A stretch of DNA of 40,837 nucleotides. Source: Gemmatimonadota bacterium (GTDB taxonomy: Bacteria > Gemmatimonadota > Gemmatimonadetes > Gemmatimonadales > GWC2-71-9). The stretch covers positions 1 to 40,837 of the forward strand of contig QHUZ01000031.1 of the NCBI GenBank assembly GCA_003223395.1, written 5' to 3'. Below are positions 2,268-14,984 of this stretch, piece by piece. A program made the translations under genes and the position numbers. The stretch's first letter is position 1, and every line of letters begins with the position of its first letter. The notes below the pieces were generated by a model. The model searched no databases. It saw only the letters and a list, made by a program, of their open reading frames with translations, and was not told where the DNA came from.

Positions 2268-3614
2268 TTATCGGCCCGTCCCAACTGCCTCCCGTTTCGT
2301 CTCCGGTTCGCGCAGCCCGAGCGAGCGCTCGATCTCCCGCGTGATGTGCATCGAGCAGAACTTGGGCCCGCACATCGCGCAAAACTCCGCGCTCTTGAAG
2401 TACTCGGCCGGCAACGCCTCGTCGTGCAGCTCGCGCGCTCGCGCCGGATCGAGCGCCAGGCGGAACTGCTCGTTCCAGTCGAACGCGTAGCGCGCGCGTG
2501 ACAGCGCGTCGTCCCGCTCGGTCGCGCCCGGCCGGCGCCGCGCGATGTTGGCCGCGTGCGCCGCGATCTTGTACGCGATCACCCCTTCGCGAACCTCCTC
2601 GGCATTCGGCAGACCGAGGTGTTCCTTGCGCGTCACGTAGCACAGCATGTCCGCGCCGAACCACCCGATCATCGCGGCACCGATCGCCGAGGTAATGTGG
2701 TCGTAGCCAGGCGCGACGTCCGTGACGAGCGGTCCGAGCGTGTAAAACGGCGCCTCGTGACACAGCTCCTTCTCGAGCCGCACGTTCACTTCGATCTGAT
2801 GCATCGGAATGTGCCCCGGCCCTTCGATCATCACCTGCACGTCCTTCGCCCAGGCACGCTCCGTCAATTCGCCCAGCACCGTGAGCTCGGCGAGCTGCGC
2901 CTTGTCGGTCGCGTCCGCAATCGAGCCGGGACGGAGCCCGTCGCCGAGGGACAGCGTGACGTCGTATTCACGCGCGATGTCGAGTAGCCGGTCGTAATGC
3001 TCGTAGAGCGGATTCTGTTTGCCGTGCTGGGTCATCCAATACGCCATCAGCGAGCCACCGCGACTGACGATTCCCGTGACACGGCCCAATGCGAGACCGA
3101 CGTGCTCGCGCAAGATGCCGGCGTGCACGGTGACGTAATCGACTCCCTGCTTCGCCTGGTGCTCGATGTTGTCGAGAATGTCGTCCGCGGTGAGCTGCGT
3201 GATGTCGCCGGCGATCTGGATGGCCTGGTAGATCGGCACCGTGCCGATCGGCACCGGCGACGCCGCGATGATCGCCTCCCGAATTGCATCGATGTTTCCG
3301 CCGGTGGACAGATCCATCACCGTGTCGGCGCCGTAGTGCACGGCGTGGTGCAGCTTCTCGAGCTCGCCATCGATGTCGGACTCGACGGCAGAGTTGCCGA
3401 TGTTCGCGTTGATCTTGACGCTGGCGACTTTCCCGATGGCCATGGGGTCGAGCCGCTGCTTCAAGTGATTCACGTTGGCCGGAATGATGAGCCGGCCGAT
3501 CGCGACCTCGTCGCGAATCGTCTCGGGCGCCAGCCCTTCCCGCTCGGCCACGCGCTGCATTTCGGGAGTAACGGTGCCCTGACGGGCGAAGAACATCTGG
3601 GTGCGGCAGGTCAT
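2268..3614 (-). CDS. thiC: phosphomethylpyrimidine synthase ThiC
   Basis: Radical-SAM enzyme that converts aminoimidazole ribotide to hydroxymethylpyrimidine phosphate, the pyrimidine half of thiamine. The 448-residue protein is the short form without the long N-terminal extension of the Escherichia coli enzyme. The C-terminal cluster motif CX2CX4C is present as CAMCGPKFC (Cys412, Cys415, Cys420), binding the 4Fe-4S cluster. [19 protein letters not shown] and [14 protein letters not shown] are further ThiC signatures. The ATG at 3614 has GGGAG six bases upstream. That ribosome-binding site is the last segment of a TPP riboswitch (3620-3699), so translation is probably shut off when thiamine pyrophosphate is plentiful. 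No other thi genes are in the window. Confidence 0.97.
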
Positions 3615-3619
3615 ACTGA

Positions 3620-3699
3620 GCTCCCTTCGCCGGTACGAACCGGATCAGGTTCTAAGGGTGTGATCTCAGCCTGCCGACTCCGGCAGGCACCCCTGCGAT
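3620..3699 (-). promoter_or_regulatory. TPP riboswitch (THI element) in the thiC leader
   Basis: Read on the minus strand the leader carries the conserved TPP aptamer blocks in order: GGGGTGCC, a variable CCTGCCGG/AGTCGGCAGG stem region, GGCTGAGA, ACCCTTAGAACCTGATC, CGGTTCGTACCGGCGAAGGGAG. The closing GGGAG is also the Shine-Dalgarno sequence of thiC, six bases from its ATG, implying translational control. A -10-like TACATT at 3711-3706 would place the transcription start at about 3700, exactly at the aptamer's 5' edge. Confidence 0.95.
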
Positions 3700-3718
3700 G
3701 ACCGAAATGTAGCGGGTT

Positions 3719-11302: not shown

Positions 11303-12554
11303 GGTCTGGGCGATCATTCGCCGCGAGTTCGTCGAGCGCGTTCGCACCAAGTGGTTCTGGGTCTCGGCCATCCTGGGTCCGGTCTTGTTCGCCGGCATAA
11401 TCGTCTTCCAGATCATGCAATCGGTGGGCGGTGGAGTCCGGAACATCGCGATCGTCGACACCGGGAGCCTCGGCTACGGTGCCCAGATCGGGGAGGCGCT
11501 GGGAGCCAGCAGGACGTTGCGGGCCAAGACGGTCAAGCTGAGTCCTGGCGTCCTCGATTCGCTGACCGGGCTCGTGGAGTCGAAGCAGATCAATGGTTAC
11601 CTGATCGTCTCTGACTCGCTCCCGACAGAAGGAAAAGCGGAGTATCGCGCGTCGAATCTCTCGCTGCAGACGATCGAGGAGCTGCAGCGGACCCTGAATC
11701 GCGTGGTGGTGAAGGCCCGCCTGCAGAGCAAGGGTGTGAATCCCCCAGTCGTGGATTGGGCCCAGGCGCTCAGGGTCAATCTGGATCAGAAGAAGATCGC
11801 GCACGGCCGCACCACGACGGAGAGCGCGGGCGAGTCGTTCATCCTCGCCTACGTGATGGCGATTCTCCTGTTCATGGCGATCCTGCTGTACGGTGTGAAC
11901 GTCATGAGCTCGGTGCTGGAGGAGAAAACCACCCGGATCATCGAGGTTCTCGTCTCGTCGCTGCGACCGTTCCAGCTCATGCTGGGCAAGGTGATCGGCG
12001 CCGGTGCGGTATCGTTTTTCCAGTTCGTCATCTGGGGCGTCTCGGCGCGGCTGCTGATCAGCCTGCGCGTCCCCATCGCCCGCGCGCTGGGTGCGGATAC
12101 CGCTTCCGCGCAAACCATGACGCTGCCGCACATCCCGTTTGCGACACTCGCCGTATTCATGGCGTTCTTCCTGGGTGGCTTCCTCCTGTATTCGTCGATG
12201 TTCGCCGCCGTGGGCGCGATGTCGAGCAACGAGCAGGAAGCCCGCCAGGCGCAGCAGCCGGTGACGTACCTGCTGATGATTTCGTACTTGTCGATCATCG
12301 GCTTGACGAACGATCCGAGCTCGACGTTCGCGCGGACGCTGTCGATCGTGCCGTTCACGTCCCCGATCGCGACCCCAGTCCGCTGGACGGCGGGCAGCAT
12401 GGGCACCGGCGAGCTGCTCGCCTCATTGGCGATGCTCGTGATCGGGATCCTGGGCGTGACGTGGATCGCGGCACGGATTTATCGGGTCGGGATTCTGATG
12501 ACGGGCAAACGGCCGACCATGAAAGAGCTGGTTCGATGGGTCAGAACCGCCTAA
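11295..12554 (+). CDS. ABC-2 type permease (NatB-like)
   Basis: A 419-residue membrane subunit starting at GTG 11295, inside the end of the ATPase gene. After VHKVWAIIRREFVERVRTK comes a first membrane helix (about residues 18-42), a large extracytoplasmic domain (about 45-185), then a block of five or so helices beginning SFILAYVMAILLFMAILLYG. SSVLEEKTTRIIEVLVSSLRPFQLMLGK is the cytoplasmic loop shared by NatB and related ABC-2 permeases. It partners the preceding ATPase. The start was chosen from homology to the arginine-rich N-terminus; the frame remains open upstream within the ATPase gene. Confidence 0.9.
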
Positions 12555-12562
12555 CGACTAGA

Positions 12563-12623
12563 CGAGGACATGCAAAGACTGGGCTGCAGACGCACCGCGG
12601 GCTCGAGTAAACGGGGTACGGGA
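12563..12623. repeat. left inverted-repeat arm of the four-helix-bundle element
   Basis: Pairs base for base with 13035-13095 (coordinate sums of 25658). Mismatches are scattered, as expected of an old RNA or DNA stem. Immediately inside it is a GATGA-rich purine tract (12621-12646) of unknown meaning. Confidence 0.8.
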
Positions 12624-12672
12624 TGAGATGAAATGATGGGATGATTCTGCAGGTCCTGCTTATCCTCCTGAA

Positions 12673-13050
12673 GTGCCGAACCATCACACACTGAAAGCGT
12701 GGCAGCATGCCGAGAGACTCGCTGTTGAGTGCTCTCGCGCCGCTCAGCACTTCCCTGATTTTGAGCAAGAACGACTCGCCGATCAGCTTCGGAGGGCGTC
12801 GTACAGCGTTCCCCTTAACATCGCTGAGGGATCGGCCCGGAAGGGCAGCAGGGATTACCGCAGATTTCTCGATACGGCATGGGGCTCGCTCGCCGAGGTG
12901 CAAACCGCGCTCGTGATGGCGCGTGATATCGGTTACCTACGCGCGGCCGAGTTCGGGCGCCTCGAGGCACTTGCAACCGAGACTAGCAAGACACTCTTCG
13001 GTCTTCTCCGAAAGGTCACCCAGGCGATCGATCGTCCCAAACCCCGTTGA
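12673..13050 (+). CDS. four-helix-bundle protein, 23S rRNA intervening-sequence family
   Basis: A 125-residue protein of the family annotated as four helix bundle or S23/IVS protein, structurally related to the Avd protein of diversity-generating retroelements. The family hallmarks are LKAWQHAERLAVECSRAA, the SVPLNIAEGSARKGSRDYRRFL stretch, and EVQTALVMARDIGYL. Its molecular role is not established; nucleic-acid binding is suspected. The start is GTG at 12673 with no clear ribosome-binding site. The final codons and the TGA stop fall inside the right inverted-repeat arm, so gene and repeat form one unit. It interrupts what would otherwise be a natB to mnmG spacing of only a few dozen bases. 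Confidence 0.88.
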   Translation: MPNHHTLKAWQHAERLAVECSRAAQHFPDFEQERLADQLRRASYSVPLNIAEGSARKGSRDYRRFLDTAWGSLAEVQTALVMARDIGYLRAAEFGRLEALATETSKTLFGLLRKVTQAIDRPKPR

Positions 13051-13095
13051 CTGTGGGCCGCGGTGCGTCTGTGGCCTAGCCGTTGCCGGTCCTCG
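13035..13095. repeat. right inverted-repeat arm of the four-helix-bundle element
   Basis: Reverse complement of 12563-12623 at 47 of 61 positions. It contains the last five codons and stop of the four-helix-bundle gene and ends 17 bases before mnmG, so the mnmG promoter must lie in or right beside it. Confidence 0.8.
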
Positions 13096-13112
13096 CTTTG
13101 TAGTTTCTGTCC

Positions 13113-14984
13113 ATGTTCGACTATGACGTCATAATTGTCGGCGGTGGCCACGCCGGCACCGAGGCTGCCGCCATGTCGGCCCGCCTCGGCGCCAGGACTC
13201 TGCTGCTCACTTCTGTCCTGGACACGATCGGACAGATGTCCTGCAATCCCGCCATCGGCGGCATCGCAAAGGGTACCGTCGTCCGTGAGGTCGATGCCCT
13301 GGGCGGCATCATGGGCCGCGCCGCCGATCGCGCGACGATCCAGTTCCGGATGCTGAATCGGTCCAAGGGCCCGGCCGTCTGGGCCCCGCGCGCGCAGGCC
13401 GATCGCACCCTCTACAAGCGCGCCGTCCGCACGTTGCTCGAGCAATTCCCTGCCCTCGAGCTCACGCAGGGCATGGTCACAAATCTGCTCCTCGACGAGC
13501 GCGGCACGCGGGTCACCGGCGTCGAGACGAAGGACGGCCGTCGCTTCAGCGCGCGTGCCGTCATCATCACCGCTGGCACCTTCCTCCGTGGTCGTATTCA
13601 TCTCGGCACCGACACGCAAATCCCCGCGGGCCGGGCGGGAGATCAGCCATCCGTCGAGATGGCGCAAGTCATTGAAAAACTGGGACTTACGGTATCGCGC
13701 TTCAAGACCGGCACACCACCGCGCGTCGATGGCCGCTCGGTGAATTGGAGCAAGGTCGAACGCCAGGACGGCGACAGTCCCGAGTTCCGCTTCTCCTTCC
13801 ACGAGCGCGTCGACCGGCCACGGCAACTGCCGTGCTGGATCACGTGGGCTGGCGAAGAGGTGAAGGACATCATCCAGCGACATCTGAAGGAGTCGGCATT
13901 GTACGGTGGCGCGATCAGTGGTCGCGGGCCACGTTACTGCCCCTCCGTCGAGGACAAGATCGTGAAGTTCCCGGCGGCCACGCGCCACCAGATCTTTCTC
14001 GAGCCCGAAGGACTCGACACGACCGAGTTGTACGTGAACGGCCTGTCGACTTCCCTGCCCGTCGCCGTGCAGCTCGAGTTCCTGCATGCCGTCCCGGGCC
14101 TCGAGTGCGCCCACATGACACGCCCCGGCTACGCGATCGAGTACGACTACTATCCGCCGACCCAGCTCACACCGTGGCTCGAAGTGAAGACCGTCGAACA
14201 TCTGTTCTTCGCCGGGCAGATCAACGGCACGACCGGTTACGAAGAGGCGGCGGGCCAAGGCGTGGTCGCCGGCATCAACGCCGTCCGCCGGATCCGTGGC
14301 GCCGAGCCCGTGGTCCTGGGGCGCGACGACGCGTATGTCGGGGTACTCGTTGATGACTTGGTCACGCGCGGCGTCGACGAGCCATACCGCCTGTTCACGT
14401 CCCGGTCCGAGTTCCGCCTGCTCCTCCGTCAGGACAACGCACTGCGTCGCCTGTTGCCGCTCGCCGAGCGGCTCGGTCTGCTGACCGACGCCGAGCTACG
14501 CGCTGCGGAGCGGCGGCTCGAGGCGGAGGAGTCGGCACTGCGACTCGCGCGCGAGACGACGATCTCTCCGGAAGCGGCCGCCGGCCCACTCGCCGAAAGC
14601 GGTACGACGTTGATGGAGGGCGATCGGATCGCGGTGATCGCAAAGCGGCCAGGTGTCTCCCTGGCCGCCCTGTTCGCCGCCGCCGGCGTCGGAACCGAGG
14701 CGGCCGCGGATGCGATCGTGGCAGCGGAGATCGAGATCAAGTACGACGGCTATCTGGCGCGCGAGCGCGAGGCGGCGGCGCGACTCGCTGAGCTCGCGGC
14801 GTTTATCCTGCCCCTTGACCTGCCCTATCTCGAGCTGCGCACACTCGCGACGGAAGCACGTCAAAAACTCGATCGCGTGCGTCCCAGCTCCCTCGCGCAG
14901 GCCGCGCGCGTCCCCGGTGTGACGCCCAGCGATCTCCACAACCTCGTCCTTGAGGCCACGCGCTGGCGGCGGAGGGTCGCCTAG
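13113..14984 (+). CDS. mnmG: tRNA uridine-5-carboxymethylaminomethyl modification enzyme MnmG
   Basis: A 623-residue FAD enzyme which with MnmE installs the carboxymethylaminomethyl group on the wobble uridine of certain tRNAs. The FAD-binding GGGHAGTEAA is at residues 10-19. CNPAIGGIAKG, RAQADR, GTFLRG and the FAGQINGTTGYEEAAGQG block are all MnmG signatures. The ATG at 13113 is preceded six bases upstream by TAGTTT (13101-13106), suggesting a leaderless transcript. It stands in the classic origin-proximal place before parAB, but rsmG (gidB), usually found between them, is absent here. The neighbouring mnmE is also not in the window. Confidence 0.97.
   Translation: MFDYDVIIVGGGHAGTEAAAMSARLGARTLLLTSVLDTIGQMSCNPAIGGIAKGTVVREVDALGGIMGRAADRATIQFRMLNRSKGPAVWAPRAQADRTLYKRAVRTLLEQFPALELTQGMVTNLLLDERGTRVTGVETKDGRRFSARAVIITAGTFLRGRIHLGTDTQIPAGRAGDQPSVEMAQVIEKLGLTVSRFKTGTPPRVDGRSVNWSKVERQDGDSPEFRFSFHERVDRPRQLPCWITWAGEEVKDIIQRHLKESALYGGAISGRGPRYCPSVEDKIVKFPAATRHQIFLEPEGLDTTELYVNGLSTSLPVAVQLEFLHAVPGLECAHMTRPGYAIEYDYYPPTQLTPWLEVKTVEHLFFAGQINGTTGYEEAAGQGVVAGINAVRRIRGAEPVVLGRDDAYVGVLVDDLVTRGVDEPYRLFTSRSEFRLLLRQDNALRRLLPLAERLGLLTDAELRAAERRLEAEESALRLARETTISPEAAAGPLAESGTTLMEGDRIAVIAKRPGVSLAALFAAAGVGTEAAADAIVAAEIEIKYDGYLAREREAAARLAELAAFILPLDLPYLELRTLATEARQKLDRVRPSSLAQAARVPGVTPSDLHNLVLEATRWRRRVA

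Follow-up and report, generated by a model that had tools for sequence, protein, structure and literature searches.

The window analysed here, a stretch of 40,837 nucleotides and contig 57 of a 3.41-Mb draft genome that its named relatives place in the Gemmatimonadota, carries a gene of the 23S_rRNA_IVP family (PF05635) between long inverted repeats, and this locus raises the question of what a gene of the type found in the intervening sequences (IVSs) of 23S rRNA is doing in an intergenic palindrome. PF05635 genes are common and, to our knowledge, have no assigned function, nor do we know of any catalytic function for the IVP protein. The origin and mobility of the 23S rRNA IVSs themselves have been described as unclear (PMC4990558). 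An earlier note on this DNA had taken the locus for a free-standing relative of the ORF-bearing IVSs, and our searches support that view, as inverted arms around such an ORF were found in many genomes.

Anatomy of the window unit

The 61-bp inverted repeats that the earlier note described were recovered exactly when we recomputed the pairing of positions 12563-12623 with 13035-13095, which gave 47 complementary positions out of 61 without gaps; when this geometry was placed at random in the window 300 times, the best 61-mer scored 31.5 on average and 37 at most. Ungapped extension of the repeat lengthened the pairing to 55 of 74 positions (12553-12626 with 13032-13105), and when 400 sliding windows were scored across the 40.8 kb, a score of at least 30 was obtained at this unit alone. 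The enclosed ORF matched PF05635 (E=2.5e-30; 105 bits against a cut-off of 33.8) as its sole Pfam family, and also TIGR02436, there being no other ORF in the unit; its TGA stop codon (13048-13050) lies within the right arm, again as had been claimed, and its GTG start is backed by an ATG at the equivalent position in a relative (G001). The unit is located between an ABC-2 permease gene (stop codon 12552-12554) and mnmG (ATG at 13113), and an Rfam search of the window identified no rRNA match, which agrees with the noted location outside rRNA and ahead of mnmG. The unit thus shares two traits with the 23S rRNA IVSs, namely an ORF of the S23p/IVP family and complementary termini that form a stem, but unlike them it is located outside the 23S rRNA genes. 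Elsewhere in the window there is a TPP riboswitch (RF00059, 63.6 bits) at 3605-3704 on the minus strand.

Table 1. Coordinates of the palindromic unit and its parts in the window.
Feature	Position	Strand	Remarks
Whole unit, including the outermost pairing positions	12553..13105	+	74-nt arms, 74% complementary
Left arm of palindrome	12563..12626	+	Outer module CGAGGACATGCAAAGACT and core CAGACGCACCGCGG (12587-12600) match a dispersed palindrome family
Leader, left arm to start codon	12627..12672	+	Position corresponds to the loop of gene-less palindromes (comparison with gene-less copies)
PF05635 23S_rRNA_IVP / TIGR02436 gene	12673..13050	+	125 aa, four-helix bundle; GTG start; TGA in right arm
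Right arm, complementary to left arm	13032..13095	+	Core CCGCGGTGCGTCTG (13058-13071), outer module CGTTGCCGGTCCTCG

PF05635 units in this genome and in other bacteria

Our searches identified 14 PF05635 matches, corresponding to 13 genes, in this genome, and inverted arms flank every one of the 12 genes that have both flanks, the observed score being reached in none of 200 shuffles. The arms are mostly short tandem arrays of 7-8-nt units that are oppositely oriented to the left and right of the gene, and the sequence of the array unit varies by gene (GGTGTCA, GGAATGAT, GGGGCGGTA and others). The possibility that the arms are one shared repeat was rejected, as their sequences differ from unit to unit; of the search for further copies that had been proposed, the part concerning the combination of arms and ORF was borne out in many genomes, while the arm sequence turned out to be private to each unit. 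When we scanned 437 kb of this genome for the arm-pair geometry, 12 places were identified, eight of them PF05635 units (that is, every such unit in the 437 kb away from the ends of the examined stretches) and four of them weak and without tandem arms.

We searched 41 genomes, this one and 40 relatives, for PF05635 and found it in 36, at a maximum of 17 matches per genome; most of these genomes are incomplete drafts, and the per-genome unit lists are partial. An arm score of at least 30 was found in 90 of the 99 units with both flanks in this genome and its relatives, as compared to 20 of 1482 cross-pairings, in which the left and the right arm came from different units (a control drawn from the first 39 units), several of the 20 being between orthologous units. 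The tandem character of the arms was also apparent from the best lag inside the left arms, which was 7, 8, 14 or 16 in 64 of 87 units versus 20 of 87 control segments. In other phyla (Bacteroidota, Patescibacteria, Gastranaerophilales, Chloroflexota and others) 38 of 57 PF05635 loci scored better than 100 out of 100 shuffles; cultured bacteria such as Flavobacterium limi and Niastella soli are among the hosts of these units. Since combinations of arms and ORF exist widely and relatives keep the arms paired, neither of the two outcomes named beforehand as speaking against the reading, i.e., relatives that all have the ORF in place with no conserved arms, or the lack of any further copy of arms with such an ORF in any genome, was what we encountered.

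Three further observations were made on these units. The left arm, which precedes the gene, is richer in G than in C in 77 of 87 units; three PF05635 matches are clustered on a 3.7-kb contig of one relative (L174, G003:C39); and a contig labelled Actinobacteria (L091, VAWH01000090.1) has a unit with the arms of the window unit (type A, see below) and a protein 78% identical to that of the window, this contig probably being mis-binned.

Inheritance in place and gene-less hairpins

The suggestion that a host enzyme mobilises the unit through its stem gained no support here: within the genus the units stay where they were inherited, and we found neither a clear target duplication nor recent transposition. 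Units remain at orthologous places, homology between units at different places is limited to the ORF (at most 76% at the nucleotide level), and none of these comparisons showed a unit in the act of moving. Of ten genomes of the genus, nine have a unit at the mnmG site (the site in G007 is empty). Three arm types, A, B and C, occur there; two sister species differ in arm type, with A in G002 and C in G009, and their ORFs are divergent. All units at this site share one orientation, and an apparent inversion (L031 versus L006) was rejected, since once the loci were oriented the two run in the same direction. Queries with joined flanks identified species without the unit at several places, and the comparison of such empty sites, which had been expected to give precise ends and any duplication, showed no clean insertion and no clear target-site duplication in these divergent species, a short stretch being replaced instead. 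At the rpmA site relatives hold short gene-less inverted-array hairpins in place of the unit, at another site the ORF is truncated in a relative (L242) while the flanking arms are still in place, and arrays may extend over the stop codons of adjacent genes. At one further intergenic site, G002 and G009 (L192, L193) have a unit with other arms and the opposite orientation to that in G000 (L005), a difference that is either independent occupation or inversion with turnover.

Each arm of the window unit is one half of a ~138-nt palindrome that is dispersed in gene-less form; in the unit, the gene occupies the palindrome's centre. This type-A palindrome is found as ~10 full or partial gene-less copies per genome in G000, G001, G002 and G005, and no full copies were found in G003, G004, G007 or G008. 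In this genome gene-less copies of the arms were identified elsewhere for seven of 12 units (the window unit and six others, e.g., ~20 copies for the GGAATGAT unit), none being found for the remaining five, and in a control the flanks of five units matched only themselves. Gene-less copies of a unit's own arms were also found in several genomes of other phyla, where G042 and G045 (0.9 Mb) each had no fewer than 25 sites, and were few or lacking in about half of the 14 other-phyla genomes; these hairpin counts rest on sampled stretches and sequence searches. A separate interspersed palindromic repeat with TGTCATCCTGAGCG ends and no heptad arrays was noted at L086:11663-11910 and L267:4720-4918 (G000 and G002).

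At five intergenic sites that have the type-A palindrome in type-A species, other species have palindromes of other families. Through the flanks of such sites we located 13 hairpins in species without type-A arms, which were therefore picked irrespective of their sequence, and for eight of the 13 there was a clear match among the PF05635 units of the genome they came from. The matched partners were type C (twice in G009), the CGGGAAA unit and type B (G003), type B (G004 and G008) and the unit L413 (G007), the last retrieved only after its hairpin was known; one further hairpin was a weak match of the same type (G008, C87b), and for four of the 13 no partner was found, several of these genomes being incomplete. 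As the best score in the type-B comparisons was often to another type-B genome, the match is one of family rather than strictly of genome. At shared sites one hairpin family has been replaced by another, in partial step with the resident IVP unit, although shared repeat units can inflate matches between low-complexity arrays and the tracking is partly confounded with phylogeny. In G027, a genome from another family, where seven of seven units have strong arms, an arm-independent scan gave ten hairpins, three of which matched the genome's own units at scores of 73-102, versus at most 26 for foreign arms; in G008, 200 kb contained no hairpin scoring at least 40 although 11 units are present. Covariation in the type-A hairpin was uninformative because most pairs are invariant, with double changes in just four of 39.

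The main rival to the reading that IVP drives these families holds that the palindromes spread by other means, either as intergenic repeats in their own right or as hairpins akin to terminators, and that IVP genes chanced to insert into their loops or survive best there. That the gene-less hairpins exceed the gene-bearing ones in some families, that arms can persist around the truncated ORF of L242, and that arrays overlap the stop codons of neighbouring genes all fit such a model, as does a passage in PMC4679880, citing Mrazek 2007, in which heptanucleotide arrays are given as common bacterial slippage products. However, IVP genes almost never occur without arms (the 90 of 99 units above), and the model would require repeated independent insertions of different lineages into the centres of different families; moreover, inverted tandem-array hairpins numbered zero in 400 kb of two IVP-free genomes versus five in 400 kb of G002, which points the same way, though on counts too low to carry weight. 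We consider this model unlikely, if deserving of serious attention.

We likewise weighed whether the arms are kept for the stem they form in a transcript, to be cut by RNase III as in 23S IVSs and to insulate adjacent mRNAs, the spread of the repeats being incidental. The RNA fold of the window unit is more stable than those of 100 out of 100 dinucleotide shuffles (z=-5.8), the 28-bp stem of the Coxiella IVS is cut by RNase III in the excision of that element (PMC4990558), and among the arm mismatches in other phyla G.U pairs outnumber A.C pairs (63 versus 34, p=0.004). The 87 Gemmatimonadota units, however, show no such sense-RNA bias (103 G.U versus 118 A.C), and the model does not account for the recurrence of a unit's sequence, without the gene, at other loci; in our estimation it is rather improbable.

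More improbable still is that a RAYT (Y1_Tnp) transposase moves these hairpins as it would ordinary REPINs, IVP having nothing to do with their movement. While Y1_Tnp genes are found in 20 of the 41 genomes searched, with three in this genome, none were detected in the IVP-bearing G011, G027 (eight matches), G030, G034 or G007, and none of the IVP arms of this genome are near its three Y1_Tnp loci, two of which have unlike hairpins. In G033, which has Y1_Tnp matches and no PF05635, we noted GTCATTCCCGCGAAAGCGGGAATCC palindromes at L385:6084 and L386:2876, probably an ordinary RAYT/REP family.

The IVP protein and a comparison with known systems

Five type-A genes at the mnmG site differ with a pN of 0.02-0.07 versus a pS of 0.66-0.83 (saturating), and dN/dS for the protein at this site is ~0.01-0.03 where dS could be estimated; the window protein is therefore strongly constrained, and by these substitution counts its gene is under strong purifying selection. 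Residues S45, P47, N49-G53, S72 and E75 are invariant among 31 relatives. The predicted structure of the window protein (pLDDT 96) superposes on XCC0516 (2gsc, Z 21.3) and on a Bacteroides protein of the S23 family (2rld, Z 17.0), against a background in which unrelated bundles begin at Z 12. XCC0516 has been reported to be a homopentameric torus (PMC4990558). The same predicted fold matches Avd of diversity-generating retroelements (DGRs; 4dwl and 8ube) at Z 14.9-15.3, with an rmsd of 1.6-1.9 A over 106-111 residues, a likeness that would suit an element driven by a reverse transcriptase with which IVP acts as Avd does; yet an RVT_1 reverse transcriptase is found in just three of the 41 genomes and not in this one, and of the explanations considered here we regard this as the most far-fetched.

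The window unit is a free-standing gene-in-hairpin element, a PF05635 gene set in the loop of an intergenic palindrome. It is one of about a dozen such gene-bearing units in this genome, each with a palindrome sequence of its own, and for many of them further hairpins of that sequence, without a gene, are found elsewhere in the genome. The explanation that we favour, with slightly better than even confidence, is that IVP binds the hairpins of its own family and thereby enables the family to persist, to be copied or to be homogenised. IVP, an Avd-like bundle by prediction with a relative crystallised as a pentameric ring, may bind the hairpin as an RNA stem or as single-stranded DNA, and the family would then persist, or be copied or homogenised, by host replication, recombination or RNase enzymes, the gene-less hairpins being putative non-autonomous members served in trans. 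What we observed is the anatomy of the units, their nearly universal arms with sequences private to each copy, the gene-less family members in the same genome, the replacement of families at shared sites in partial step with the resident unit, and the purifying selection on the protein; that IVP binds the hairpins and drives their spread or homogenisation, and that a host enzyme of one of these kinds does the chemistry, we infer. Speaking against the explanation are that no unit was seen to move, that empty sites showed neither clean insertions nor clear target-site duplications, that four of the 13 flank-located hairpins lack a partner and one has a weak match, that five of the 12 units of this genome have no gene-less copies, the result in G008, and that IVP is not known to be catalytic.

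The gene-in-hairpin units and their scattered gene-less copies suggest that this is mobile or self-maintaining DNA of a kind that has received little study, and they hint at a possible origin of the ribosomal inserts. Slightly less assured than our favoured explanation is its extension, on which PF05635 proteins of many phyla may be hairpin-specific factors that maintain and spread their own palindromic DNA families, unrelated to RAYT/REPIN, the 23S rRNA IVSs being members that landed in rRNA. A gene in a palindrome would give PF05635 genes a testable function, the recognition and maintenance of hairpins; it would offer a likely source for the rRNA IVSs, add a second gene-hairpin system, on an unrelated protein, to RAYT/REPIN, and supply many proteins along with their natural cognate hairpins, from which specificity could be decoded. 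In the open-access PMC literature (subscription papers and preprints lay outside the scope of the search) we came across no paper that describes PF05635 units in intergenic DNA together with dispersed hairpins.

Among known systems, DGR Avd has the same predicted fold as the window protein (PDB 4dwl and 8ube, Z about 15), but its sequence is 14% identical, and no reverse transcriptase, template repeat or variable repeat was identified with the unit. RAYT/REPIN (Bertels and Rainey 2011, PMC3116915) shares the combination of a gene, palindromes derived from a repeat, and dispersed, matching, gene-less extragenic hairpins. Despite this like organisation the unit is not a member of that system, because the Y1 transposase is absent from it: its protein, a four-helix bundle, has no HuH/Y1 transposase domain, and the hairpins also differ from those of RAYT/REPIN, being 75-190 nt long, often built of heptad arrays, and of up to a dozen families per genome. 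As in the MITEs of DNA transposons, the gene-less palindromes have both ends in common with the gene-bearing unit, but unlike MITEs the unit has no transposase, and no terminal sequence is conserved across units; the empty sites, compared among divergent species, showed replaced stretches and no clear target-site duplication.

Some rRNA IVSs have no ORF, and these resemble the gene-less hairpins described here. The 23S rRNA IVSs of Coxiella and Leptospira are like the present units in their protein family, in having the ORF in an inverted-repeat stem loop and in their size of ~430-600 bp, and the Coxiella IVS has tandem heptamers (GACAGAT) ahead of its ORF that resemble the arrays found here (PMC4990558). 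Unlike the 23S IVSs, the present units are intergenic, occur in many copies per genome, have dispersed gene-less hairpins and are under strong purifying selection, whereas the ORF of the Coxiella IVS is decaying (PMC4990558). The stem of the Coxiella IVS, its excision by RNase III and its tandem heptamers nevertheless fit a common origin with the intergenic units.
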